Shown here piece by piece: positions 16,806 to 40,066 of a DNA stretch of 40,066 nucleotides; position 1 is the first letter of the stretch, and every line of letters starts with the position of its first letter. The stretch is from Gammaproteobacteria bacterium. GTDB taxonomy: Bacteria; Pseudomonadota; Gammaproteobacteria; Arenicellales; JAANXG01. Made by a program: the position numbers and the translations under genes. Where the stretch lies: assembly GCA_024639325.1 (NCBI GenBank), contig JAHEIO010000029.1:1-40066 (forward strand), in the 5' to 3' direction. The notes below the pieces were generated by a model, which was not told where the DNA came from, searched no databases, and worked only from the letters and a program-made list of their open reading frames with translations.

Positions 16806-18054
16806 ATGAGTCAACCTGAGGTAGAGGCACTTTCTAACGATAAAAGTGCAGTGAGTAATTTTAGTTTGGACACATGTCGGCGAAAGTCCATTCTCGTTAT
16901 ATTGTTGATATTGACGGTTGCTGTACAAGGTTGCGCTTCGACACCCGTTCGAAATCCGCTTCCAAAAGAATTGTAAGCCCAGGCCGAAGTTCCAGGCGTG
17001 CCGCGTGCACGTTTTTGGGGCGATGAGCCCCCACCTTATCTTCAGGACGTGTTGGCCCTGTCGCAGGCTGACCTCGAGGCGAATTTTTCGGGAATACTCG
17101 GGCGAACACCATTACCTGGCCGTCTCCGGTGGGGGAGCCAGGGGAGCCTATGGTGCCGGTGTTCTCGTCGGTTGGAGTGAAGCGGGAACGCGGCCCGAGT
17201 TCACCATCGTCTCCGGCGTCAGCACGGGTGCGCTGACCGCGCCGTTTGCCTTTCTCGGATCGGACTATGACGATGAACTTAAGGTGTACAGTAAATACTC
17301 TACAAAGGACTTGGTCAAAAAATCCAACGCATTAACCGTCTTTTGGCGAGACTCCGCAGTCAGCAGCGCGCCGTTAAGGGCTCTGATTGCGCAATATATC
17401 GACGAGACCGTCCTCAGGGCCGTGGCGGAGGAACACCGCAGGGGCCGACGTCTTTGGATTGCAACCACGAACCTCGATGCCGGCCGGCCCGTCTTATGGA
17501 ATGTGGGGGAGATTGCCGCCAGCGGCAGCCCGCAGGCATTGGAACTCATGCGCGACGTGGTGCTGGCCTCTGCCTCCATACCGGGTGCTTTCCCACCGGT
17601 TTATACCGAGGTTGAAGTTGATGGTGAACGTTACGATGAGATGCACGTCGATGGGGGGACAACGACCCAGGTCAATTTTTATCCTATTGGAATAGATTGG
17701 CGAGAAATTACCAAGTTACTCGGCGTGAGAGGACGGCCCACTGTTTACGTCATTCGCAATGCGTCGCTTGATTCGGACTACAGACCGGTCACTCCAAGAA
17801 TTGCATCTATTGCAGGTAGCTCAATAAGTGCATTAATCCGTACCCAGGGTATTGGTGATATGTATCGGATCTATCTAGGGGCACGACGTGATCGGGTGGA
17901 TTACCGTCTCACCTTTATCCCGCCAGAATTCACGGCCGAGCCCAAAGAAATGTTCGATCCAGACTACATGAAGTCGCTGTTCGAGCTGGGTCGTCAACGA
18001 GGCAGAGATGGCGCAGCCTGGCAAAACGCGCCTCCTGGTGTGAAGGAGCTGTAA
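16806..18054 (+). pseudogene. Patatin-like phospholipase lipoprotein, broken
   Basis: The ATG at 16806 opens a lipoprotein signal (SILVILLILTVAVQGCAS, lipobox VQG-C). The frame meets TAA at 16974-16976 after 56 codons. The same frame continues beyond it as family sequence (VPGVPRARFWGDEPPPYL, then LSQADLEANFSG) until about 17103, where a change of frame is needed to join HHYLAVSGGGARGAYGAG. From there the catalytic domain is intact: oxyanion GGGARGAYG, nucleophile GVSTG, and DGG (HVDGGTTT) with the catalytic Asp. It ends normally at 18054. Two independent lesions mean the exported lipase cannot be made as one chain; only an internal start could yield the catalytic part. Family members are periplasmic or outer-membrane phospholipases of marine proteobacteria. 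Confidence 0.8.
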
Positions 18055-27578: not shown

Positions 27579-30500
27579 CTACGTTGGCGAGGAGCGCTGC
27601 TCCTTGAGGATCTTGAGGTCATCGAATTCGTCGTCGTTCGAGAACAGTTTGCTGCCGATGTGATAACCGAGTCCGCGGTACGCCTCGAACCTCGCCTCGG
27701 TGAAGAACTGCTCGCCCGTCGTTTCGTGGGGAAACATCGGGTTTTCGGATCGATACTTTCGAATGTACTCGTACTCGTCCCCGGCCAGCGAAGACTTGAC
27801 GTACAAAAGATGACCGGTCTCGCCATCCGCGTAGCGGATCGTCCCGAGAGCCCATTGTTTCGAGCTGAGCCCTGAGTCATCCTTCCGCAGCGGATCGAGA
27901 TCGATCTTGATCTCGATCCCGAGATCGATCCGCGCATAGAGCATCAGCTTGACGAGGCCGCCGAATCTCATCTCGCTGTCCCTCTCGCCGTCGATGACGA
28001 TGATGAACCGGCAGCGACGGCGCAACAGCTCGAAGATGCCCAGATTCTCGATGTGCCCTCCGTCAGAGACATTCACGTACGATCCATACATATCCAAATT
28101 GCCGAGCGACTCGTTCAACACGTACTTCGGCCCCGGACCCCGGAGCAGAGCGAGTCGCCGCAGGAGTGGGGGGCTTTCGGCAAATCGTGGATTGGGCAGC
28201 CAATACCCAGTCCGTCCGGTCGTCCCAGAGGCTTTCCGGAATGCGAGTGTCAAAAGATTCGGCCAGGTCCAGGTCGGTCTCCCGGTCTCCTTCGCCCTCA
28301 CTGATCATCAACCGGTGCCCGCTTTTTTGGATTGTGTAGTCAAAAGGATCAAGCACCTCCCAGCGCCCCTCACCGCTCTGGATGATCGCAGCCTTCTCGC
28401 TCAGCTCGATCCCAAGGTCGCTCAGCACGTCACGCCAAGGGCTTTCCTCGCCCGTAATGTTCTCCGCGGTGAGGTCGCTGTCACGCAGCTTGGCGCGGAT
28501 CCGGATGCCGTTCTTGGCGCGCGTCAGGTCGTATTGAGTCCCGGTGTTCCTGTCGTTAACGGTTACCTTCCGGAATGGCGACACCAGGTGGCTCCCCCCC
28601 GCCGCCTTGAGCTGCTCCATTGCTTCGAAGAGATCATTGAACCTGAGGCCTGTGCGCGATTCGAATACCGGATAGAACGCGCCGCCCGTCTTCCGCGTCA
28701 GGTTCGCGAAGAGACCGAAGTTGGCTTTCGAGGATAACGCGACTCCGAAAATTCGAATGCCTGCGGCTTCGGCGTCCTGCGCAAACTCTCCTTCGATCCA
28801 GCTCTGGAGATCCGCATCGTGACCCTCCCCGAGGTCAATCACCCCGTCGGTGATTATCGCGATGGACTTTCGCTCCCACTTGCGACCGTGATTTCTCAGC
28901 TCGAGCATCGCGCGGGCCAGAGCAGCGGGGCTGTTCGACTGCTTTCCCTGGAAATCCAAGCGCCGACCTTTCGCGGGTCCGCCACCGTATAGACTCTGCA
29001 TCAGCTTCTGCTTCGACTCCGGGGTGATATCTTTGAAATACATGGCCCTGTGGACGTGCTCGTCGAACCAGAACACCGCCAATCTCACGGTCGGGCGCGT
29101 CGACTCTAGCACTTGGTCTAAAGCGTCCTTGAACGCAGCCCGGAATTCATCCTTGTCGACAAACTGGGGGACAGAGTTGTCCACAAGCAAGACGACATCG
29201 TGAGGACTGCCTTGTTCGACGAACCGCACTGCCTGGGCGAGATCGTCATCCGAGAGCGACACACTCTCATGCAGCAGCACGTCCATCGGCGCCTCTGAGA
29301 TCTGTATGGTGTAGGAGATCGCCTGAAAGACCTCGGCAATGATCGGGCGGGAGACGACTTGCTCCACGGTCCAGGTCGCCATCTGTGGGTCGTGCGTAAA
29401 CCAGAAAATGCGGGAGCCGACGATGCTGTATCGATTGTCACGCAGCTCCGGAACGGATGCAGCCTGAGTCCCCAGCCGATAACCCTTTCGGGCCAGCACT
29501 GTCCGGAGCTCGACGGGGATACTCCCGCGGTTCAGCGCGTACTGATAGTCGGGATGCACGATCACGCCGTCGTGCTCCGATCGTAGCATATAGCCGCGGT
29601 CGCCGTCGTGAAGCAACCACCGCAAGTCGCCCTCGAGCGTGATGACCTCCGCCGCTGCACCGACCCGAACCTGGTTGTCCCGAAACTCGCGCCGGAGCTC
29701 CGGGGTGATTCGGTCCATCTCGCCCAGTTCGTTGGCATATGCCGAATCCAGGCGGAACAGCTCTTTCGGCGAGACGAAGGGCGAGTCGACCTGCAGCACC
29801 AGGAGGGCGAGGAAGACCATGAAGAGGAACGCAGGGCCGATCAGTCCCAGGCCGATCAGCATGATCTTTCCACCCAACCGCGCCACGTTCTTGGAAGCGC
29901 GCCCCGCGAGCATGAACATGACGACCGCGACGAGCACGAGCAGCCACTGGAGATAGTCGCGTGGCTCGAACGGCCGGAGGAGATTGGCCGTGATACGCTC
30001 CTTCATGTCTACCCAGGAAAGGTCTAGGACCTGTCCCACGAGAATGAGCGAGGGCACGATGAACAGAATGGTCAACATGACCAAGAGGACGAGGGTGAAG
30101 GTCATCTCCTCGAAGTTGCGTCGCGCCCAGCTCGATCGAACGCGCAGAACCCGGCTCAAGAGCGGCGACACGACGACGAGAACCAGGAACGCCGCGACAC
30201 CGGCCAGCGCGATGTAGGTGAAGGGCAGGCGCAGCCGGCTTCCGAACTCATAGACGAACTCAGTCAGACCCACCAGCAGCAGGATCATAAACAGGAAGAT
30301 GAGCAGGTTGCTGAGCACGCCCCGCAGCATCACCGCCGGGATGCGAAGCTTGTCCAGGACGCCGCCCGGCGCCAGGTAACGCGCACCCTGGCGCAGGTGA
30401 CCGACGGCGAGCGGCTCTTTCGTACCCACCTCGTAGCGAAGGGGGAAGCGTTCCTGGTCGGGCCCGGTGCTTTTATCGTTGAGCAACGAGCTGAGGCAGG

Positions 30501-30735
30501 ATCCGAGGAAGCCGCCGCCGGACACGGTGGAGAGGTAGTCCACCTTCTTGAGCAAACCTTGCTTGGCGAGCGCCTGCACCACGCCGAGGGCAAACGTGGC
30601 GGAGCGAATGCCGCCGCCAGAGATGGCCAGGCCCACCAGTCCCAGCTTGGCTGAGGGGGCTGCATCGGCCGAAACTTCAGGGAGGCCCAGCTGACTGCGG
30701 CGCTTGTTGATCTCCGCAAGCTCGGCTGGAAACAC
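27579..30735 (-). pseudogene. Giant membrane patatin with inserted VWA-like domain, frameshifted
   Basis: The main frame (GTG at 30735) carries the N-terminal patatin half: oxyanion loop ISGGGIRSATFALG (38-51) and nucleophile block STVSGGGFLGS with Ser72. Five membrane helices follow between residues 140 and 318. Residues about 512-690 look like a von Willebrand A domain (HDVVLLVDNSVPQF, KSIAIITDGVIDLG, IRIFGVALSSKANFG), with the metal-site DxSxS degraded to DNSVP. Near 28209 (after WDDRTD) the frame breaks; one extra T fits. The next frame continues GYWLPNPRFAESPPLLRR and holds the patatin Asp motif SDGGHIENLGIFELLRRR, ending at 27579. The second catalytic residue thus sits 700 residues after the first. 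Codons before 30735 (EQFVRD) also look coding, so the true start may be further up. If the shift is real, the lipase is inactive. Confidence 0.8.
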
Positions 30736-30965: not shown

Positions 30966-31796
30966 CTACCTGACCCCACCGCCGATCATCAAGTAAGCGA
31001 AGGGGCCATCGTAGGTGTAATTGAAGTTGGATTCCGTGCCCGCCACGGTGATTTTACCGTCGGCGTCGTTATAGAGATAAGCCGCCCCGAAGCCCACGTT
31101 CTTGAACGGGCGCCATTCGATGCCGGCGAAAGCATCGACAAAATCTGCGTCGATATCGCCGATTTCAAGACCCAGGTAGCGGGCGCTGCCCATGAACATC
31201 CATTGCGAAGAAAACGCCTGATGCCAGAACAAACCGATCGAAGGCAGGGGTTCGGTGACGTCATCACTGACGGGGGTGAGGGTCGGTGCGCCCGGGACCC
31301 TAATCCTGACGGTGTTCTTGATCTTGGTAACGGCAACACCCGCCTCAACACCGAACTCCGTTTTTGAGTTTTTTACAAACGCATACTCCAATGCTATCGG
31401 CAAACTGCTCGTCTCGTAATCCAGTGCCAAAGTGGTGCCCGCCGGCACGGTGATGCCGCCTATGGGCGTGCCGGCGCTGAAGGTTGTCGTGTCGTCGCGG
31501 GAAATCTTCGAATACCCCAAGTTCAGATGCAACTTCGGGGTAATACGCCATTTGGCGAACAAAGCAACGGTGGTTTCATCGGCACCCAACAGCGCATCCT
31601 GATCGAAATCCACCCCCTGGACACGGACCTTGGTATCAAAATTTGCGAAGAACGGACCGCCGCGCAGCTGAAAGATATCGTCCAGGCCCGGATTGATGGA
31701 TTGTGCATTCGACACCGAAATGCCGCAAATAAGCAGGAGCAGCGATGTGGCTAGTGTGGCGGATCTCGCGGGTTTGTTTTTACGTTGGGATATCAT
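30966..31796 (-). CDS. FNR-controlled outer-membrane beta-barrel protein
   Basis: 276-residue outer-membrane protein with a signal peptide (ATSLLLLICGISVSNA-QS). About eight strand pairs are seen, such as ALFAKWRITPKLHLNLGYSK, LPIALEYAFVKN and FGAAYLYNDADG, and the chain ends AYLMIGGGVR. I do not recognise a specific family; it resembles OmpW-size or porin-like barrels with unknown cargo. It is alone in its unit. A perfect FNR box lies 152 bases upstream of the start codon, with a TATAAT at the right distance (see that entry), so expression under oxygen limitation is expected. Confidence 0.75.
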   Translation of the reverse strand: MISQRKNKPARSATLATSLLLLICGISVSNAQSINPGLDDIFQLRGGPFFANFDTKVRVQGVDFDQDALLGADETTVALFAKWRITPKLHLNLGYSKISRDDTTTFSAGTPIGGITVPAGTTLALDYETSSLPIALEYAFVKNSKTEFGVEAGVAVTKIKNTVRIRVPGAPTLTPVSDDVTEPLPSIGLFWHQAFSSQWMFMGSARYLGLEIGDIDADFVDAFAGIEWRPFKNVGFGAAYLYNDADGKITVAGTESNFNYTYDGPFAYLMIGGGVR

Positions 31797-31919: not shown

Positions 31920-31961
31920 ATTATAAATCCGTACCTAGTGACCGGGCTTGATCCATATCAA
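31920..31961 (-). promoter_or_regulatory. Class II FNR promoter of the outer-membrane barrel gene
   Basis: TTGATCCATATCAA (31948-31961) is a perfect FNR/Anr box. On the minus strand a consensus TATAAT lies at 31925-31920. Taking the start of transcription seven bases beyond it (about 31913), the box is centred 41.5 bases upstream, exactly the class II activation position known for FNR. The leader to the ATG at 31796 would be about 117 bases. Confidence 0.75.
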
Positions 31962-32384: not shown

Positions 32385-33760
32385 ATGGTCGCCCCTCTAT
32401 TAACCGGCATCGATGTGCCAAAGTGGTGAATGTGACTACCACTTAACGAGAGAGGCGACCGAGATGAATATTACGACAGTTGGTATGATTTGGCTAAACC
32501 CGTGTTTCAGGTGCATGGAGTTGATGAACGAGGCCAATGCGTTGTTCAAAAGCGGTTGCGACGCAAGCAAGTTTTGATATTTTTTGCGCAGGTGTCTCCC
32601 TGCCTTATTGGCATGGAACCCTGTGCGGGGGCGCACTATTGGGCGCGAAAACTCCAAGGTCAAGGACATTCGGTGAAGCTGATGGCGCCGCAGTTCGTGA
32701 AGCCGTATGTGAAGTCGAACAAGACGGATGTCGCGGACGCGGAGGCGATCTGCGAGGACGGTTACCCGTCCCAATATGCGTTTTGTGCCAATCAAGCGGG
32801 CGGATCAACAAGCGGTGTTGTCTCTGCATCGAGCCCGACGGGGTTTTGTCAAAGCGAGGACAGCGCTGGCGAACCAGATACGGGGCTTGCTCGGCGGATA
32901 CGGTATTACCGTGCCACAAGGCATAAGTTATGTTGCCCGACGCATACCGGAAATCATTGAAGATGGGAAAACGATCTACCGGACGTATTTCGTGGGTTAT
33001 TGCACCGCTTGTGGACTCATTTAAAAGAACTCTACCGCCAGGTTCAAGAGCTGGAAGAGCAGATTAACGCTTGGCATCGATCCAGCGAAGCCAGCCAGAA
33101 ATTGGCCAAGATACCCGGTATTGGACCGCTGACTGCCACTGCCCTGGTAGCATCGATTGGTGATGCCAAGGACTTCAGGAACGGTCGTGAACTGGCGGCG
33201 TGGTTAGGGCTGGTACCCCGTCAGCACTCGAGCGGTAGCAAGGTATTGTTACAGGGGATCAGTAAACGGGGTGATGGGTACCTGAGAATGTTGATGATTC
33301 ACGGAGCGAGATCGGTAATACGCGTTGCCGAGCGCAAAACGACCCTTACGGATAATTGGTCAAAAGAAATGCTCAAGCGGCGTCACAAGAACGTGGCGGC
33401 GGTAGCTCGAGCCAACAAAAACGCTCGCGTTGTTTGGGCATTACTTGCTCATGGACGTGACTACGATGCGGGTTATGAACTCGCAACAACATGACCGCCC
33501 ATAACAGGAACTAGAACACAGGAAAATTTCCACGATTGCTCAGGCGAACATGACATGATGGCAAGACAGGTCAGACCGTGGCAGGCCAAACCTATTTCAC
33601 ACGGGGAGCGAAAAGCTCGTCAGGCTGTAAAGGACCCTGCCAGCAGATTCCATCAGGGGCACGAGGCGCATTGCCTTGATCAAAAGTCCGAATATATGGC
33701 TGCAATCTACACCTGCTCACCATCTTCGATTGAACGCTTGACAATACGAGGGGCGACCAT
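32385..33760 (+). mobile_element. IS110 family (IS1111-type) insertion sequence, inactive
   Basis: The left end reads ATGGTCGCCCCTCTATTA (32385-32402) and the right end, on the opposite strand, ATGGTCGCCCCTCGTATTG (from 33760), so there are short inverted repeats, as in the IS1111 subgroup. A third copy of the arm (TTAACGAGAGAGGCGACC, 32443-32460) abuts the transposase start and can pair with the left end. Between the transposase stop (33494) and the right end are about 250 non-coding bases, where IS1111-type elements encode their guide (bridge/seek) RNA. No target duplication is evident, as expected for this family. Confidence 0.75.
32464..33494 (+). pseudogene. IS110 family transposase with three frameshifts
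   Basis: About 340 codons from ATG 32464 (GAGAGGCGACCGAG just upstream). The product would read MNITTVG, then LAKPVFQVHGVDERGQCV, FVKPYVKSNKTDVADAEAI, RPNMRFVPIKRADQQAVLSL, LHRLWTHLKELYRQVQELEE and IPGIGPLTATALVASIGDAK, ending in YELATT. This covers the N-terminal RuvC-like DEDD domain and the C-terminal transposase-20 domain with its serine region (RQHSSGSK). Single-base losses near 32484, 32757 and 32967 break the frame three times. The first falls beside the first catalytic Asp. The element cannot encode its own active recombinase. The C-terminal 165 codons (33000-33494) are intact. Confidence 0.88.
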
Positions 33761-33818: not shown

Positions 33819-35273
33819 ATAAAGCGATTTATTGAAGGCGAGCCGCGAGCACAGATCAGTTTGCCACCCGAATGTTTGGATGATTATGTAGATGAAGATA
33901 ACTCGGTCCGGGTTATCGAAGCATTTATTGATGCGCTTGATTTAGGGGAGATGGGTTTTAGTGCAGTGAATCCCCATGATACGGGGAGGCCTGCCTATCA
34001 CCCCTCCGTAATGTTGAAGCTATGTGTATACGGATATCTGAATCGAATTCATTCGAGCCGGTGTCTGGAACGGGAGACGGGGCGTAATGTTGAGCTGATG
34101 TGGTTGACGGGTCGATCAAAGCCCGACTTCGAGACGATAGCCAATTTTCGCTGAACCAACGGCAAGGCAATCCGCAAGGTTTATCGTGAGTTTATTGTCC
34201 GTTGTCGCAAACTGGACCTGCTGAGTCAGACACTGGTGGCGATAGATGGGAGCAACTTCAAAGCGGACAACAATCGGGACCGGAACCTGAATCCGTCGAA
34301 GGTATCACGTCGCCTTAAAGAGATCGAAGGGAGCATCGAGCGATATTTGTATCGTCTGGACAAAGCGGATCAAACAGCTGGAGGCTGAACTCCATAACAC
34401 GCCGGAGAAGCAGATATCACTGACTGACCCGGATGCACGATCCTTGAGAAGCAGAGGAGCTGGGATTGTCGGCTATAATGTACAGGCGGCGGTCGATACC
34501 AAACACCACCTGATTATTGGCCATGAGGTGACGAATGAATACAGCGATCGCGGACAGTTGTTTTCCATGGTACTGCAAGCTCAGGCGGCGATGGAGGTTG
34601 ATGAACTAAAAGTCGTCGCGGATCGGGGTTACTTCAAGAATGTAGAGATTCTGGCGTGTGCCGAAGCGGGTATCGCAGCCGTTGTGCCAAGACCTCAGAC
34701 TTCGAATAATAAAGCAGCAAGTCTTTTTGATCGGGAAGATTTTCATTATGTACCTAAAGATGACGAGTATCGATGTCCGGCGGGCGAACGCCTGCCCAAG
34801 CGGACGACGATGCAACAGGATGGCATGACTTTGTATCGATATTGGAGTTCGAATTGTCAGTCTTGCGAACTGAAATCCCGATGTACAACGGGTAAAGAAC
34901 GGTGCGTATCACGCTGGGAACACGAGGACGTGCTTGAAGCCATGCAGGATCGGCTTGATCGACAGCCGGAGAAGATGCTGATTCGCCGGGACACAGTAGA
35001 ACACCCATTCGGGACGCTCAAACGTTGGATGGGGTCAGAACACTTCCTGACCAGAACTTTCGAGCATGTCAGCACCGAGATGAGTCTGCATGTGCTCGCC
35101 TACAATCTAAAAAGAGTGATGAACATTGTAGGTATCGAGGCACTGATAGGCGCCATCCGCGCCTTATTTATCGTTTTTATGGTCGTAATTTGCGTTATCA
35201 GGCGAGCGTATACGGCATCTGGACGTCATTTGGCGGTCATAAACTGAAACCAATCCAAAACCTTAAAATATAA
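33819..35273 (+). pseudogene. IS1182 family transposase, decayed
   Basis: Where the family starts MKRFIEGE the sequence has ATA AAG CGA TTT at 33819, so the start codon is lost. It continues LPPECLDDYVDEDNSVRVIE, RPAYHPSVMLKLCVYGYLNR and VELMWLTGRSKPDFETIANF to a TGA at 34152, then in frame FIVRCRKLDLLSQTLVAIDG. Near 34360 (RYLYRLDKADQ) part of the linker is missing and the frame changes to QLEAELHNTPEKQISLTDPD. The catalytic middle is intact (IVGYNVQAAVDTKHHLIIGH, ADRGYFKN, HEDVLEAMQDRL, VEHPFGTLKRWMG). A last shift near 35168 ends the match. At least four lesions. It lies directly behind the IS110 element and in front of the cytochrome operon. Confidence 0.85.
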
Positions 35274-35376
35274 ACGTCCATTACCTAGCCCGATAGCTTC
35301 GCCAATTCGCCGCGCTGTTTTTACACGGTCTCTGCCCGAAGCGGGCACCCTGATACCTCTCTATCGTTCAAGAAAC

Positions 35377-35396
35377 TACCTCACAAAAGTGAGGTA
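35377..35396 (+). promoter_or_regulatory. Perfect palindrome TACCTCAC-N4-GTGAGGTA
   Basis: TACCTCACAAAAGTGAGGTA has two perfect 8-bp arms around AAAA. There is no T run after it, so it reads more like an operator or a hairpin than a terminator. It lies 106 bases before the FNR box and just behind the IS remnant, so it could also belong to the insertion sequence end. Confidence 0.4.
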
Positions 35397-35501
35397 TTAC
35401 AAATCGTATGAAGGGTTCTACGAATGGCGGCTTTGGCCTCAATCCAGCCCTCATAATTCGCAATGGTTGAAATCGGGCATCGTATTTAAAAAATGTAAAT
35501 A

Positions 35502-35515
35502 TTGATCTGGATCAA
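35502..35515 (+). promoter_or_regulatory. Perfect FNR box upstream of the cytochrome operon
   Basis: TTGATCTGGATCAA matches the FNR/Anr consensus TTGAT-N4-ATCAA at all ten positions. It ends 82 bases before the cytochrome ATG. This fits an anaerobically induced respiratory gene. The polymerase site is not clear, so activation geometry is unresolved. Confidence 0.7.
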
Positions 35516-35597
35516 ATTAGCTAGAATTATTTGTAATCAAAAAGTTTGTCAATACTGCATAATTAGGGTCGCTAATAACCCCATAGGAAACAAGAAA

Positions 35598-37976
35598 ATG
35601 GTGAAGGTCTTAGCGTCCCCCCTGAAGTTCATAATCGCTCCGTTTCTGTTCCTAATTGCCACACCCGCATTAGCGAACATAGGCTGTTTGAGTTGTCACC
35701 AGGGTATCGAATCGATCCGCCAGGAAAACAGCGCGATGATGCAGTTGATCAAAGCTTTGGCGGTGCCTCATGGAGATGCGGGGGGGTGTGTCATTTGCCA
35801 CGGTGGTGACCCCACGGCGACCGAGGCCGAAGCTGCGCACAGCGGTTCACCCGATGCACTTATGAAGGACAATGGGCCTCAATTGTTCTACCCAGACCCT
35901 GGGGCGATGGATGTAAACAAGTTTACCTGTGGACAAGCGGCCTGTCATAAAGGCTATGGGGAGCGGCTGGAGAAGTCACTGATGAACACAGAGGCCGGAA
36001 AGATCCAGGGAAACTTGCATACCTGGGGTATCCCGGAAGTACAGAATTATCAAGTGCCGTGGGGCAACTATGATGTTACAGATGAAGACGGGCAGGTGCC
36101 TGTCGTCGGTACGGATGAATATAAATCCTATATGCAGGCGATGATCTCTGCACATCCGGATCAGTTTCCCACCGAACTCAAGCAAGTTCCGAATCCGACC
36201 GTGGAGGAAATTGAAGCCGACCCGAAACTGGCCGGTTTTACTTACCAGCGTCAACAGTGCCAGCGTTGCCACGTTACGGTCAAAGGCCGTGAGAAACGTG
36301 GTGATTTTCGCGGCCAGGGTTGTTCATCCTGTCATATTCCCTATGCCAACGACGGTTTCTATGAAGGTGGTGATCCAACCATCAACAAGGACGAACCCGG
36401 ACACCTGTTAACCCACCAGATACAGGGTACGCGAGAAGCCGTGATCAAGCACGGCGACATAGAATACTCTGGGATTCCCGTCGAAACCTGTAATTCTTGT
36501 CACAATCGCGGCAAGCGCATCGGCGTGACCTATCAAGGTTTGATGGAGTTTCCTTACGGTTCGCCATGGACCCACAGCGGCGGCAAGCAGCCCAAGCTGC
36601 ATACGAAGAATTACCTGTTTATTTCCGATGACCTGCATCATCAGATTACGTCCCGGCCGGGTAACCCGGAGGGCGGATTATTGTGCCAGGATTGTCACAC
36701 CACGGTGGATATGCATGGTGACGGAAATATTTTTGGTACAACTCTGGCGCAGGTTGAAATTGAATGTGAAGACTGCCACGGCACACCCGAAAAGTATCCG
36801 TGGGAATTAGCCCTTGGACACGGCGAGGAATTCGATAAAGAACTAACTGATACGCCCAGAGGTCTGTCGGATGCGCCGGGCGCCGAAGCGGGTTTTGGCA
36901 CGCTGTATTCGAAAAAAGACGGCTATCTGAAAACCACGCGTGGAAATCCATTCGGAAATGTGGTGAAAGATGGGGACCGGGTCACTATGCATTCGGCGAC
37001 GGGAAACGATTTCGAAGTTCCGCTGCTTAGAAAGTTGATGGTCGATGACACCTGGAAAAGCCCTGATGCGAAGGTCGCTATGGCCGCAGTGAAAAAGCAT
37101 GCGCAAAACCTTGAATGTTACGCCTGTCATGCTTCCTGGGTCCCGCAGTGTTACGGTTGCCACGTTAAAGTTGACTACGGCAAAGATAAAGACGGTATGC
37201 CGTTACAGGACACCGATTGGGTCGCTTCCGGCACCGAACGGAATCCGGATGGGTCAACCGCGGAGTCACCGCTTGGCGTGAAAGGGATACAGAGCCCGGG
37301 CAAAGTCAGTGAAACCCGTTCGTATCTGCGTTGGGAAGAACCCGTACTGGGAATCAATGGTGAAGGGCGGGTAACGCCTTTGATGCCCGGCTGCCAAGTC
37401 CTTTGGACGGTCATCGATCGCGAAGGTACGACGCTGGTCCATAATGACATCGCAGAATCGGAGGATGAACGCGCGATGCTTGGGCAGGAACGAACCCCAC
37501 TGGGAATCGATATGGCGCCGGTGCAACCCCATTCCGCTCAGCGCAAGGCCCGAACCTGCGAATCGTGCCACAACAACCCGAAGGCGCTTGGTTATGGTAT
37601 TGCCGGCGGTGTATTCCAGACACGCTACCCGGTGGACATCGTGGAAGATTTGATCGACCAGAAAACCGGCAAGGTGATTCCAAAACGTCATCAGATTCAG
37701 GTGGCCAAAATCGAAAAACTGGATTTCGACTGGTCCACAATTGTCAAAGACGATCAACAGGTGCAAACCGTCGGTACGCATTGGCCGTTGTCGAAGGCTC
37801 TGCCCAAGGAAGTGAGGGACGGCATGGAGCGGACCGGCCTGTGTCTTGGCTGTCACCGCGAAATGACGAACGCGGAGTTGTGGGCGAAGGTATCGGAACC
37901 CGGGACCCTTAACGATGCGCAACACATCGAGATGCTGAATAAGATGTTGCGTAGCTACGCGAAAACCAAGGAATAG
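35598..37976 (+). CDS. Twelve-heme periplasmic cytochrome c
   Basis: 792-residue exported multiheme cytochrome. The start at 35598 gives MVKVLASPLKFIIAPFLFLI, a Sec signal peptide cut after PALA, with AGGAAACAAGAAA in front. Heme motifs by Cys position: CxxCH at 30, 64, 221, 242, 298, 363, 390, 507, 518, 654 and 749, plus CGQAACH at 111, a CX4CH type known from some cytochromes c3. That makes twelve predicted hemes. There are conserved-looking pairs CYACHASWVPQCYGCH (507-522) and long heme-free segments (120-220, 395-505, 525-650) that may form a catalytic or docking domain. It does not look like NrfA, octaheme tetrathionate reductase or MtrA, so I cannot name the substrate. An FNR box upstream and the coexported TPR and unknown proteins point to an anaerobic periplasmic reductase or electron conduit. 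Confidence 0.92.
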   Translation: MVKVLASPLKFIIAPFLFLIATPALANIGCLSCHQGIESIRQENSAMMQLIKALAVPHGDAGGCVICHGGDPTATEAEAAHSGSPDALMKDNGPQLFYPDPGAMDVNKFTCGQAACHKGYGERLEKSLMNTEAGKIQGNLHTWGIPEVQNYQVPWGNYDVTDEDGQVPVVGTDEYKSYMQAMISAHPDQFPTELKQVPNPTVEEIEADPKLAGFTYQRQQCQRCHVTVKGREKRGDFRGQGCSSCHIPYANDGFYEGGDPTINKDEPGHLLTHQIQGTREAVIKHGDIEYSGIPVETCNSCHNRGKRIGVTYQGLMEFPYGSPWTHSGGKQPKLHTKNYLFISDDLHHQITSRPGNPEGGLLCQDCHTTVDMHGDGNIFGTTLAQVEIECEDCHGTPEKYPWELALGHGEEFDKELTDTPRGLSDAPGAEAGFGTLYSKKDGYLKTTRGNPFGNVVKDGDRVTMHSATGNDFEVPLLRKLMVDDTWKSPDAKVAMAAVKKHAQNLECYACHASWVPQCYGCHVKVDYGKDKDGMPLQDTDWVASGTERNPDGSTAESPLGVKGIQSPGKVSETRSYLRWEEPVLGINGEGRVTPLMPGCQVLWTVIDREGTTLVHNDIAESEDERAMLGQERTPLGIDMAPVQPHSAQRKARTCESCHNNPKALGYGIAGGVFQTRYPVDIVEDLIDQKTGKVIPKRHQIQVAKIEKLDFDWSTIVKDDQQVQTVGTHWPLSKALPKEVRDGMERTGLCLGCHREMTNAELWAKVSEPGTLNDAQHIEMLNKMLRSYAKTKE

Positions 37977-38004
37977 CCAATCGTCAGACTGACGGGTTCC
38001 GGCG

Positions 38005-38808
38005 ATGTGCGCCAGGCTTAAGTCGAGGGCATTCGGCGCTATCATTGGCAGCATACTGCTGCCAATGATAGTGAGTTGCGACGTTAGTAGTGATCCTGCG
38101 AGTATACCGGCCGACAGCGACCGTCAAGACGTTTCGGAGAGCGACACCCGGTTTGGTTTAGCAAGGCCTCCAGTGCCTTCCGCCCATGGTGCTTATGATC
38201 CGCACAATCAGCTGTCCCCGTCGCAGCATGTCAAAGTCGCCTTGCAACACAAATCGGAAGGGCGATTGCCGATGGCGATTGACACACTGACAAATGCACT
38301 TGACCGTTACGATAACGATCAACTGCTGTTGTCGGTAAGGAGCAGCTTGTATTTGGAAGCCAAACAGTACAGCCCTGCGCTTCAGGATATGAACGTTGCT
38401 CTACAAAAAGCTCCGAGTAATTCATCCTTGCTGATAAATCGGGCGAAGGTGTATTCGCAATTCGGCCGACTAGATGACGCGCTCACCGATTTGAACAAGG
38501 CCATCACCATTGATGAGAATCTGGTTGCTGCCTATTTCAATCGTGGAACGATTCACCATCAAAAGGGCGACTACAAACTAGCTCTCTATGATTTCACCCG
38601 ATGTATCAATATCGATCCGCATATGGCAGGCCCGTATTTTAATCGTGCTGCCACGCTCGATTTGTTGGGAGATAACGGCGCGGCCATTGCCGATATCCAG
38701 AATTTCATCGAACTGACAGACAACGAGGTATGGAAACAGAAAGCCGAGGAGTTGTTGTCGCTATGGCAGCACGCGTCGGAGTCGGAAAGTAACAGCACTG
38801 ATGGCTAA
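38005..38808 (+). CDS. TPR-repeat lipoprotein of the cytochrome operon
   Basis: 267-residue lipoprotein. The signal segment GAIIGSILLPMIVSC ends in a lipobox (IVS-C25). After a 45-residue polar linker, four to five tetratricopeptide repeats follow (about residues 75-250), for example AAYFNRGTIHHQKGDYKLAL and LLINRAKVYSQFGRLDDALT. Such proteins scaffold complexes at the periplasmic face; here it probably helps assemble or anchor the cytochrome 28 bases upstream. The sequence coding for the signal peptide contains a perfect 15-bp hairpin (38039-38071). No strong ribosome binding site precedes the ATG (GGTTCCGGCG), so translation may depend on the upstream gene. Confidence 0.85.
   Translation: MCARLKSRAFGAIIGSILLPMIVSCDVSSDPASIPADSDRQDVSESDTRFGLARPPVPSAHGAYDPHNQLSPSQHVKVALQHKSEGRLPMAIDTLTNALDRYDNDQLLLSVRSSLYLEAKQYSPALQDMNVALQKAPSNSSLLINRAKVYSQFGRLDDALTDLNKAITIDENLVAAYFNRGTIHHQKGDYKLALYDFTRCINIDPHMAGPYFNRAATLDLLGDNGAAIADIQNFIELTDNEVWKQKAEELLSLWQHASESESNSTDG
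38039..38071 (+). other. Perfect 15-bp hairpin inside the TPR gene
   Basis: Arms CTATCATTGGCAGCA (38039-38053) and TGCTGCCAATGATAG (38057-38071) are fully complementary around TAC. This very stable stem begins 34 bases after the TPR start codon and 63 bases after the cytochrome stop. No T run follows. In mRNA it could protect the cytochrome message from 3' decay or dampen TPR translation. Structure seen, role inferred. Confidence 0.7.
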
Positions 38809-38822
38809 GTAAAAGCTAACTC

Positions 38823-39404
38823 GTGACTGATTTGACTTGGCATCTTAGGGTACTTGTCGCTCTATCCTTGCTCTTAACGGGGGGCAGGTTTGCACAGGCG
38901 TTGACATTCGACGATTTACTAGCTGAAGCAGACCTAAAATACCGACAACCTAACGGATTTGGCATTGTCGAGACGCGTGTCAACGAAGTTCTGAGCTATG
39001 AGCAGGCGGTGAGACGGCAGGACAATGCCCTAGAAATCCGCTATTCAATCAGACCCCTTTTAAGAATGACCATTCAATATGAAGATCCGCACAATGCGGC
39101 ACCCGACCCAAACCACCTGTTTCCGAGGTTGTTTCAGTCCGTGGTGGATAACCTCTCGCAAGGCGGGTATGCGCCCGCAACCGAATATCCAATCGAGCAG
39201 GCGAAAGACTACTTCAATGCCGACTGGGCCGCTGCGGCGGTGCTGGATGTATCGCCGAAGTTCAGTCAGGAGTTCAGCCAGGCCTTGGTAGTTGCACTCC
39301 ACAAAAACAAATCGGCTGACGCGTATATGGTGTTCCTGTTCGACGACTACGAGAAAGTCAAAGTCGCTATCAAATCAAATTTGAACAGTCTGAAATTCAG
39401 GTAG
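38823..39404 (+). CDS. Exported protein of unknown function, third gene of cytochrome operon
   Basis: 193-residue protein with an N-terminal signal peptide (LRVLVALSLLLTGGRFAQA, cleavage before LTFDDL). The mature part has an ABC-like mix of helices and strands (EVLSYEQAVRRQDNALEIRY, HLFPRLFQSVVDNLSQGGY, ADAYMVFLFDDYEKVK). It has no Cys in the mature part, so it binds no heme itself. I do not recognise the family. It starts with GTG 14 bases after the TPR stop on the same strand and is the last gene of the operon. It is probably a periplasmic partner, for example a chaperone or docking subunit, but this is inferred from position only. Confidence 0.75.
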   Translation: MTDLTWHLRVLVALSLLLTGGRFAQALTFDDLLAEADLKYRQPNGFGIVETRVNEVLSYEQAVRRQDNALEIRYSIRPLLRMTIQYEDPHNAAPDPNHLFPRLFQSVVDNLSQGGYAPATEYPIEQAKDYFNADWAAAAVLDVSPKFSQEFSQALVVALHKNKSADAYMVFLFDDYEKVKVAIKSNLNSLKFR

Positions 39405-39640
39405 CCCTTCAACTTCTAGTTCTCATCTATAGGACCTGCGAGCCTGTCCTGTAGGGCGTCGCCCTATCCCGTCTACGCATCATTGGTCAACGCAATGGGT
39501 CCCAGCTAGCTGGTTGGCTGAAGACCGGACGCTCGGCATGTCGAGACTCGAACGGCGGTAACGGATTCTGCACCGCGTAACGTATAGAAAAGCTGATTGA
39601 CCGGAGTGAGTAGAGGGTGTGTGAAAAGTCAGAAATTGAG
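39405..39640. other. Region behind the cytochrome operon
   Basis: A short dyad TAGGGCG-T-CGCCCTA near 39452-39466 may help end transcription, but no T run follows. No coding sequence seen. Confidence 0.3.
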
Positions 39641-40066
39641 ATAATCACAAGGAGCTCCACTCGCTGTTTTCTTTTGATGACTTCAGGTGGTAGTTGGAGT
39701 CGCTTCATCTTCGCCCGGCTGCAATTCTTCTCCCGATTGTTCACCGCCCTGAACTTGCTGCCATCAATCGCCACTACCGCTTCCGACGACAGCTTCAGCT
39801 GGCGGCACAACACTACAAACTCTCGTCACACCGCACGGATCGCCTCGCCGTTGTCCTTCCTGAAATCCGCAATCGTCTTGAAATCCGGTGTCAAACGGCT
39901 CGTCAGCCACATCAACTCCACACTACGCTGCGCTTTCCGGTCCAATCGCCGGCTCGACTGCAGCTGATTCAGATAACCGTCGATGTATATCTTCAGCATC
40001 GTCCAAGGGTGATAGGCCGGTCGCTCCATATCGCTTCGTACATCCTTGAACCCCAAACCAGACAAC
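39640..40066 (-). pseudogene. IS1182 family transposase, second remnant, cut by window edge
   Basis: On the minus strand from the window edge: LGFKDVRSDMERPAYHP, MLKIYIDGYLNQLQSSRRLD, VELMWLTSRLTPDFKTIADF and RKDNGEAIRAV, then a TGA at 39828-39826, and in the same frame REFVVLCRQLKLSSEAVVAI and DGSKFRAVNNREKN. The match ends near KMKRL (about 39700), so the gene is nonsense-mutated and truncated. It is related to, but not identical with, the remnant at 33819-35273, and has the opposite orientation. Confidence 0.8.

Follow-up and report, generated by a model that had tools for sequence, protein, structure and literature searches.

What might a bacterium do with a twelve-heme cytochrome c that stands behind a perfect FNR box, is followed by two genes for small exported proteins and falls under the cut-off of the named family it matches best? 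The question is raised by a gene cluster at positions 35377–39404 of a 40,066-nucleotide stretch of DNA (contig JAHEIO010000029.1 of the Gammaproteobacteria bacterium assembly GCA_024639325.1), which was analysed at its full length and is called the window here. On balance, and with some reserve, the cytochrome is taken to be an oxygen-controlled periplasmic oxidoreductase that would be fed by quinol within a low-oxygen electron transport chain, and the cluster as a whole is likely to be a respiratory system as far as its sequence tells. This reading builds on the heme motifs, on conservation, on gene linkage and on an enrichment of FNR boxes. The features concerned are the following.

35502 to 35515, plus strand: FNR box TTGATCTGGATCAA, a perfect consensus match 82 bp 5' of the cytochrome ATG
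35598 to 37976, plus strand: cytochrome gene with ATG start, encoding an apparently exported protein of 792 residues with twelve c-type heme motifs (eleven CXXCH and one CX4CH)
35928 to 35948, plus strand: third heme motif, CGQAACH (CX4CH), residues 111–117 of the cytochrome
37392 to 37394, plus strand: codon of Cys599, the sole cysteine outside the heme motifs
38005 to 38808, plus strand: gene of a tetratricopeptide repeat (TPR) protein of 267 residues, with lipobox IVSC at residues 22–25
38823 to 39404, plus strand: third gene with GTG start, encoding an apparently exported protein of 193 residues with a predicted PsbP/Mog1/DcrB/LpqN fold

The initial annotation had described eleven CXXCH motifs and one CX4CH motif in 792 residues, a TPR lipoprotein and an exported protein following on the same strand, and a perfect FNR box in front. 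Reading the frames bears out the motifs and the series of genes, which are separated by gaps of 28 bp and 14 bp; the export of the proteins is a judgement by eye from their N-terminal sequences. The FNR box is equally well founded, as the 40 kb window holds two perfect matches against a mean of 0.02 in shuffles, and the link to FNR extends across the family. At position 35377, where the noted stretch begins, there is only a minus-strand hairpin resembling a terminator, and hairpins of this sort show no excess over chance around it (5 found versus 4.2 expected). The nearest relative, L030, comes from a marine gammaproteobacterial metagenome-assembled genome (MAG). Against it the cytochrome is 97% identical in protein sequence and has no stops, with a ratio of nonsynonymous to synonymous substitution (dN/dS) of 0.03, values that point to strong purifying selection; the TPR and third genes give 0.23 and 0.24, all three frames are open and the FNR box is retained. 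The three-gene cluster is confirmed as intact and the observation as sound.

The twelve-heme cytochrome family

Scanning genome contigs with the cytochrome brought up 107 relatives, from which 80 loci were kept; many of the hosts are marine bacteria. Their hosts include Gammaproteobacteria, Alphaproteobacteria, 'Thermaceae', Campylobacterota, Hydrogenothermaceae, Aureispira, a planctomycete and a Chloroflexi bacterium, many of them MAGs of uncertain binning. Exactly twelve heme motifs are present in 75 of the 76 frames of at least 750 residues (the window and one contig held twice included), and the exception, L086, has eleven and begins at a contig edge. One CX4CH motif occurs in 26 of the 76; the remaining frames have CXXCH only. 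An alignment of 74 sequences, selected by length and by the presence of twelve motifs, comprises the window protein and 73 of 88 matches. The 15 matches left out are L001 (identical to the window), L030 (which shares its contig with L002), two matches of the short form (L007 and L015), ten rows shorter than 750 residues and L086. Cys599 is a cysteine in all 74 aligned long-form members, within the block RSYLRWExPxLGxNGEGRxxPxxPGCQ. Outside the heme motifs eight histidines are invariant (74/74) and three more are conserved at 92–99%; H465 is missing from short twelve-heme relatives, and an assignment of ligands by conservation is partial and does not proceed heme by heme.

The initial annotation could match the cytochrome to no multiheme family that it could name. 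This stands for the NrfA, Otr/HAO and MtrA types, which remain below cut-off in Pfam and NCBIfam, but a distant kinship with Geobacter ExtM was found. Pfam recognizes generic multiheme motifs only, and the best NCBIfam match is ExtM (NF040943; E 2.1e-63), whose model matches at E <= 0.001 all 39 members of A1, a subset of the 74 aligned sequences picked for spread. Membership of the ExtM family is nevertheless rejected, as 214.6 bits lie well under the cut-off of 800. ExtM (GSU2935) is likewise a twelve-heme cytochrome, located in the periplasm and in membranes according to the available part of PMC5877670; homology is strongest over hemes 4–10, and porins stand beside some members of both families. 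The proteins differ in length (about 790 residues here versus 599) and in setting, with FNR and cytochrome c maturation (ccm) linkage here and no ext cluster seen adjoining. In place of the extHIJKLMNOPQS type of arrangement, the neighbours of the window gene and its relatives are a TPR, PsbP-fold or Rap1a protein, ccm genes and a Crp/FNR regulator, in a survey that included no gene-by-gene ext search.

The ExtM profile was used on 369 genomes of the class (400 asked): 26 contain matches at E <= 1e-20 and none contains one over the cut-off. For the follow-up, 25 of 30 listed places became loci, and neighbourhoods were taken for 20 plus 10 stretches. The matches examined fall into a form of about 790 residues, a form of about 615 residues and a group of eleven-heme proteins. 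The form of about 615 residues retains all twelve hemes together with the cysteine (PGCQ in L099 and L104, VGCQ in L150). In all six of the eleven-heme proteins (538–658 residues; L097, L105, L106, L107, L111 and L119) the last heme is absent and methionine replaces Cys599. A divergent member, L127:7539-9827, lacks heme motifs 10 and 12 and also Cys599, and may help to assign the ligand of residue 599. The losses of Cys599 and of hemes coincide in these proteins, which suggests a heme-serving role for residue 599. The comparison of Cys599 and of the insertions was made with eleven-heme ExtM-like gammaproteobacterial proteins, not with Geobacter ExtM itself. Invariant and placed in a heme-poor segment, Cys599 is the best lead to an active site.

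Three other known families were considered and rejected. The window protein has no CXXCK motif, which occurs among the 88 matches in L092 only, and no NrfA family appears among its Pfam and NCBIfam matches at E <= 1. SirA and MccA carry eight hemes, whereas every cysteine of the window protein except Cys599 lies within its twelve CXXCH and CX4CH motifs; no long CXnCH and no family match was found, and iron–sulfur (Fe–S) and NrfD partners were seen only at L064. Membership of the OmcA/MtrC decaheme family is contradicted by the score (TIGR03507, 13.6 bits versus 209.3) and by the absence, by eye, of a lipobox before the first heme motif. Searches of PDB sequences with the cytochrome returned nothing better than E 0.1 (a single chance-level match per search). 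A full-text literature search, with subscription papers mostly outside its reach, found no recognizable description of the twelve-heme family.

Two peculiarities of frame structure were noticed among the relatives. In the related MAGs L084 (7941-10119) and L087 (7941-10072) the cytochrome is split over two frames, through an error or a real break, and the remaining cluster and ccm genes are present. In L009–L014, from family f2 of the order to which the window's genome belongs, frames of 1040–1340 residues match cytochrome residues 358–528, around hemes 7–10. Plasmid records contain no relative of the cytochrome at E 1e-20.

Partner genes, heme lyase genes and FNR boxes

Neighbours were counted with profiles built from neighbour clusters, each named via one to three representatives (CcmB, CcmC, CcmE and CcmG by eye); sets of ten, nine and five chosen neighbours were scanned against family models. 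The expectation that the three genes stay together holds for part of the family. In 78 loci the flank reaches at least 600 bp; of these, 21 have the TPR gene downstream and, where the flank extends to at least 2 kb, 18 of 19 such loci have the third gene as well; 47 have instead a gene of Rap1a type (domain PF18602, tested on L044 and L048), ten have neither and none has both. The TPR gene with the third gene and the Rap1a-domain gene are thus two exclusive alternatives. A lipobox-like pattern is found in just 17 of 42 homologous TPR frames, near-duplicates included.

No Pfam or NCBIfam family reaches its cut-off with the third protein, whose homologues in L028 and L031 have no Pfam match at E 0.1; PDB sequences offer no match up to E 5. 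The model of the third protein (predicted local distance difference test, pLDDT, 91.1; predicted template modelling score, pTM, 0.81) is more informative. Foldseek relates it to CyanoP at E 2.9e-05. VIA-align places it with 4pws (Z 12.4, root-mean-square deviation 3.1, 141 residues) and 2xb3 (Z 11.0, 3.5, 135 residues), the top 25 rows spanning Z 9.0–12.4 over 116–147 residues. The protein is predicted to have a PsbP/Mog1/DcrB/LpqN fold, which alone shows no function.

Genes for heme attachment are the commonest neighbour at other loci. With CcmC, CcmF or CcmH sought within 6 kb upstream and 8 kb downstream, ccm genes lie near the cytochrome in 44 of the 71 loci with enough flank: 36 of 45 Rap1a-type loci, 8 of 19 TPR-type loci and none of the seven with neither partner. 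On the same strand they stand upstream in L026 and L028 and downstream in L128; on the other strand, upstream in L135 and L136 and downstream in L027, L084 and L087. The cytochrome lies between ccmC and ccmB on the other strand in L031, L069 and L081, and between ccmC and ccmE in L048 and L078. The common alphaproteobacterial arrangement is a divergent set of regulator, CcmF, CcmH and CcmI; at L057 the neighbours score as NrfE/CcmF, NrfF-like CcmH and CcmI.

A search for CcmF was asked for 36 loci and performed in 35 genomes (L032 left out). Where alphaproteobacterial genomes have a CcmF that is separate and adjacent, all 14 that were searched (13 of 36 loci of this kind, plus G514) contain two or three CcmF genes. 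In comparison, 20 cytochrome-negative genomes from the family of G489, part of 144 same-family genomes without the cytochrome, have one CcmF place in 17 cases, two full copies in two and two fragments in one, so that multiple CcmF genes occur in 14/14 versus 2/20 (Fisher p 9e-08). A single CcmF was found in eight searched genomes where the cytochrome belongs to, or stands close to, a complete or incomplete ccm operon (L026, L027, L028, L031, L048, L069, L078 and L081). A dedicated lyase of CcmFHI type, that is, an extra CcmF, CcmH and CcmI set, may accordingly be proposed for relatives only, not for the window's genome.

Dedicated lyases have precedents: NrfEFG for NrfA and SirEFG for SirA are both linked to atypical heme motifs in the available part of PMC6976685, which also describes SirA, a sulfite reductase of the MccA kind, as a multiheme reductase with its own CcmF/CcmH/CcmI-type proteins and under CRP control. 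The extra adjacent CcmF of alphaproteobacterial relatives resembles both precedents, and NrfA in particular, an anaerobic multiheme cytochrome of five hemes rather than twelve, likewise has a CcmF/CcmH/TPR heme lyase dedicated to it. In contrast to these systems, no atypical motif of CXXCK type that would need such a lyase is seen here, the motifs being CXXCH with the occasional CX4CH. The latter is rejected as the cause, as L044, L060 and L071 have an extra adjacent CcmF and twelve plain CXXCH motifs.

Oxygen control is suggested by boxes and regulators alike. FNR-like boxes agreeing with the consensus in at least 9 of 10 bases lie upstream in 35 of 74 loci versus 1.3% of mononucleotide shuffles; a second comparison gives 39 of 82 loci (near-duplicates included) versus 1.8% of 1496 windows taken elsewhere in these loci. 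As the loci are related these counts are not independent, but boxes occur in both the gamma and alpha groups. In the window, the box is a predicted FNR-regulon site at the promoter. The window's genome has one FNR homologue at E <= 1e-10 (223.9 bits versus a cut-off of 228) with N-terminal CX2CX5C cysteines, and FNR is over cut-off in G037, a genome of the same genus. A divergent Crp/FNR-type regulator adjoins the cytochrome in 40 of 73 loci, 26 of the 40 regulators having an N-terminal CX2CX4-5C cluster; the single regulator scanned, that of L071, scores best as FixK, FnrL and Fnr, under the equivalog cut-offs. The second perfect FNR box of the window (31948–31961) lies 151 bp before the minus-strand gene 30966–31796, by eye an OmpW-type outer-membrane barrel with no NCBIfam match at E 1e-6.

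Proposed electron flow and rival explanations

The respiratory role suggested in the initial annotation is plausible. Export, an order of electron flow, catalysis and a reducible end acceptor are what we infer for the proposed oxidoreductase. FNR would switch the cluster on, by means of the cell's own FNR here and of the divergent Crp/FNR-type regulator in many relatives. The apoprotein would be exported and given its twelve hemes by a CcmFHI heme lyase, supplied by the general set in the window's genome and by the extra set in many alphaproteobacteria. The small periplasmic partners, either the TPR and PsbP-fold proteins or one Rap1a-domain protein, may assemble or hold the cytochrome. Quinol electrons would pass through a membrane quinone module, directly linked in L064 only, or through the general periplasmic cytochrome pool to the hemes, and their exit site would probably include the beta-rich segment, poor in hemes, that surrounds Cys599. 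The end acceptor would be a reducible compound; a chalcogen or nitrogen oxyanion is a guess.

The quinone module is visible at one long-form locus. The 5.2 kb MAG contig L064 encodes in a row a tetraheme cytochrome, a DsrO-like Fe–S protein (197.5 bits versus a cut-off of 200), a DsrP-like NrfD protein (369.3 versus 350) and the twelve-heme cytochrome; the set directly upstream of the latter resembles quinone modules of the DsrJOP and Qrc types. The NrfD protein of L064 has no match in G000 or in the 20 negative genomes, and the phylum of L064 holds no second such case (1 of 9 genomes, which is L064 itself). A related grouping was noticed at L131:837-8436, where an eleven-heme ExtM-like cytochrome stands beside five-heme and tetraheme cytochromes and DsrO-like and NrfD proteins; further genes appear by eye to encode a rhodanese-type protein and a molybdopterin oxidoreductase, and L130 has a similar molybdopterin-type gene. 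In the Tropicimonas genome G479 (locus L034), napA lies on the contig of the cytochrome, about 7 kb away and beyond the extra ccm genes (NapA at C11:44361-46829, CcmF at C11:38793-40565).

A number of observations weigh against a quinol-fed, FNR-controlled oxidoreductase. The gene picture would look no different for a pure electron carrier, Cys599 perhaps excepted. A structure search with the whole cytochrome model, which includes no hemes, gave no match at E <= 0.001, and the catalytic site is only predicted; a second comparison returned short C-terminal helix matches (best Z 3.1). These failed matches of a model neither establish a new fold nor exclude known families. The cluster is uncommon: one alphaproteobacterial family has it in 5 of 149 genomes (the centre counted), and in the order of the window 5 of 109 genomes show a match over most of the cytochrome. 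No box of at least nine matches precedes 39 of the 74 loci, and since 14 of the 40 regulators, that of L071 among them, lack the cysteine pattern, oxygen sensing by an Fe–S cluster may not be valid for all regulators of the family. No ccm gene is seen beside the cluster in the window, whose genome has its single CcmF on another contig, and 11 of 19 TPR-type loci, the window's kind, lack ccm genes in their vicinity. Most of the 36 linked alphaproteobacterial loci share one inherited arrangement and are not independent; four cytochrome-positive alphaproteobacteria without a separate adjacent CcmF (L045, L048, L078 and L093) hold one CcmF.

The electron supply and acceptor raise similar difficulties. 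No module of the DsrJOP or Qrc type is seen beside the window cluster. A search of 40 cytochrome-positive genomes with the NrfD protein of L064 found one good match (G503, E 2.8e-110) and one weak one (G488, E 1.7e-17), which leaves the quinone link dependent on a single short MAG contig. A general module of the L064 type is rejected on this count at E <= 1e-15, a threshold at which a more distant NrfD would be missed. In favour of the proposed reading, 10 of 18 cytochrome-positive alphaproteobacteria have NapA over cut-off versus 2 of 20 negative ones (p 0.004), but the positives span several orders and the negatives one family; a link to denitrification via NosZ is not supported (8/18 versus 5/20, p 0.31).

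The most serious rival, though a rather unlikely one, holds that the protein is a non-catalytic conduit, an ExtM-like twelve-heme wire that would take electrons through the periplasm to a partner in the outer membrane or to an extracellular acceptor, with a porin as exit. Its best named relative belongs to a Geobacter cluster with a porin (available part of PMC5877670), the ExtN and ExtO models also match all 39 members of A1, and residues 218–397 resemble domain II/IV of MtrC/MtrF slightly under cut-off. A porin adjoins the cytochrome in L026, L027, L084, L087, L135, L136 and L146, the three tested matching Porin_5, but such neighbours are a minority, and none of that porin cluster stands beside the window gene (no search was aimed at MtrB-type barrels). 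The cytochrome moreover has no lipobox by eye, and a wire needs neither an invariant Cys599 nor a large conserved heme-poor segment. Kinship with ExtM also leads to a more specific and less probable proposal, a reductase for selenite, tellurite, polysulfide or another sulfur oxyanion, with the chemistry suggested for the ext cluster. That cluster is tied to selenite and tellurite reduction, both of which are lowered by loss of extI, in the available part of PMC5877670, where no activity is reported for ExtM itself. The DsrO/DsrP-like module of L064 and, at L131, the tetraheme, DsrO-like and NrfD-like set with a rhodanese-type protein and a molybdopterin oxidoreductase beyond (by eye) would suit chalcogen chemistry; set against them, the ExtM kinship is under the family cut-off and the eleven-heme relatives lack heme 12 and Cys599.

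It is highly improbable that the cluster is a silent passenger, a piece of mobile or decaying DNA caught between insertion sequences and functionless in the window's genome. It does sit between apparent transposase remnants, inverted and recognized by eye on both flanks, and nucleotide homology to L030 is limited to 35333–39492. The open frames, their dN/dS values and the kept FNR box speak against decay. The oxidoreductase could also be cast more boldly, as an undescribed family of FNR-controlled anaerobic respiratory reductases that has spread horizontally among marine bacteria from many phyla, has its catalytic centre around the invariant cysteine beside the heme chain and carries its own heme lyase without an unusual heme motif; in this full form the proposal is tentative and somewhat doubtful.

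Flanking sequence and significance

The transposase-like remnants occupy 33861–35247 and 39487–40066 of the window in inverted orientation, with arms 71% and 84% complementary, and an IS110-type fragment lies at 32490–32960. Further away, positions 28063–30735 on the minus strand encode an 890-residue protein, by eye a patatin-type lipase with a VWA-like part and without an NCBIfam match, and positions 16918–18054 encode a 378-residue protein with a weak match to a phospholipase of the cyclic-oligonucleotide-based anti-phage signalling system (CBASS; 39.7 bits, cut-off 200).

The analysis adds a definition of the cytochrome family, the exchange of its partners and the invariance of Cys599, together with an FNR signal seen across the family and the ccm linkage with an extra alphaproteobacterial CcmF. 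If the proposed function is true, a conserved anaerobic redox enzyme occurs in cultured alphaproteobacteria (Tropicimonas, Aliiruegeria, Shimia, Roseibium aggregatum and Rhodobium orientis), hosts that are open to knock-out and substrate tests. The family would then also bear on the role of PsbP-fold or Rap1a-domain partners for multiheme proteins, and would offer a clean case for why cytochromes with ordinary heme motifs keep a private CcmFHI heme lyase. Should the family indeed have its own lyase without an unusual heme motif, the reason for dedicated lyases would need rethinking.

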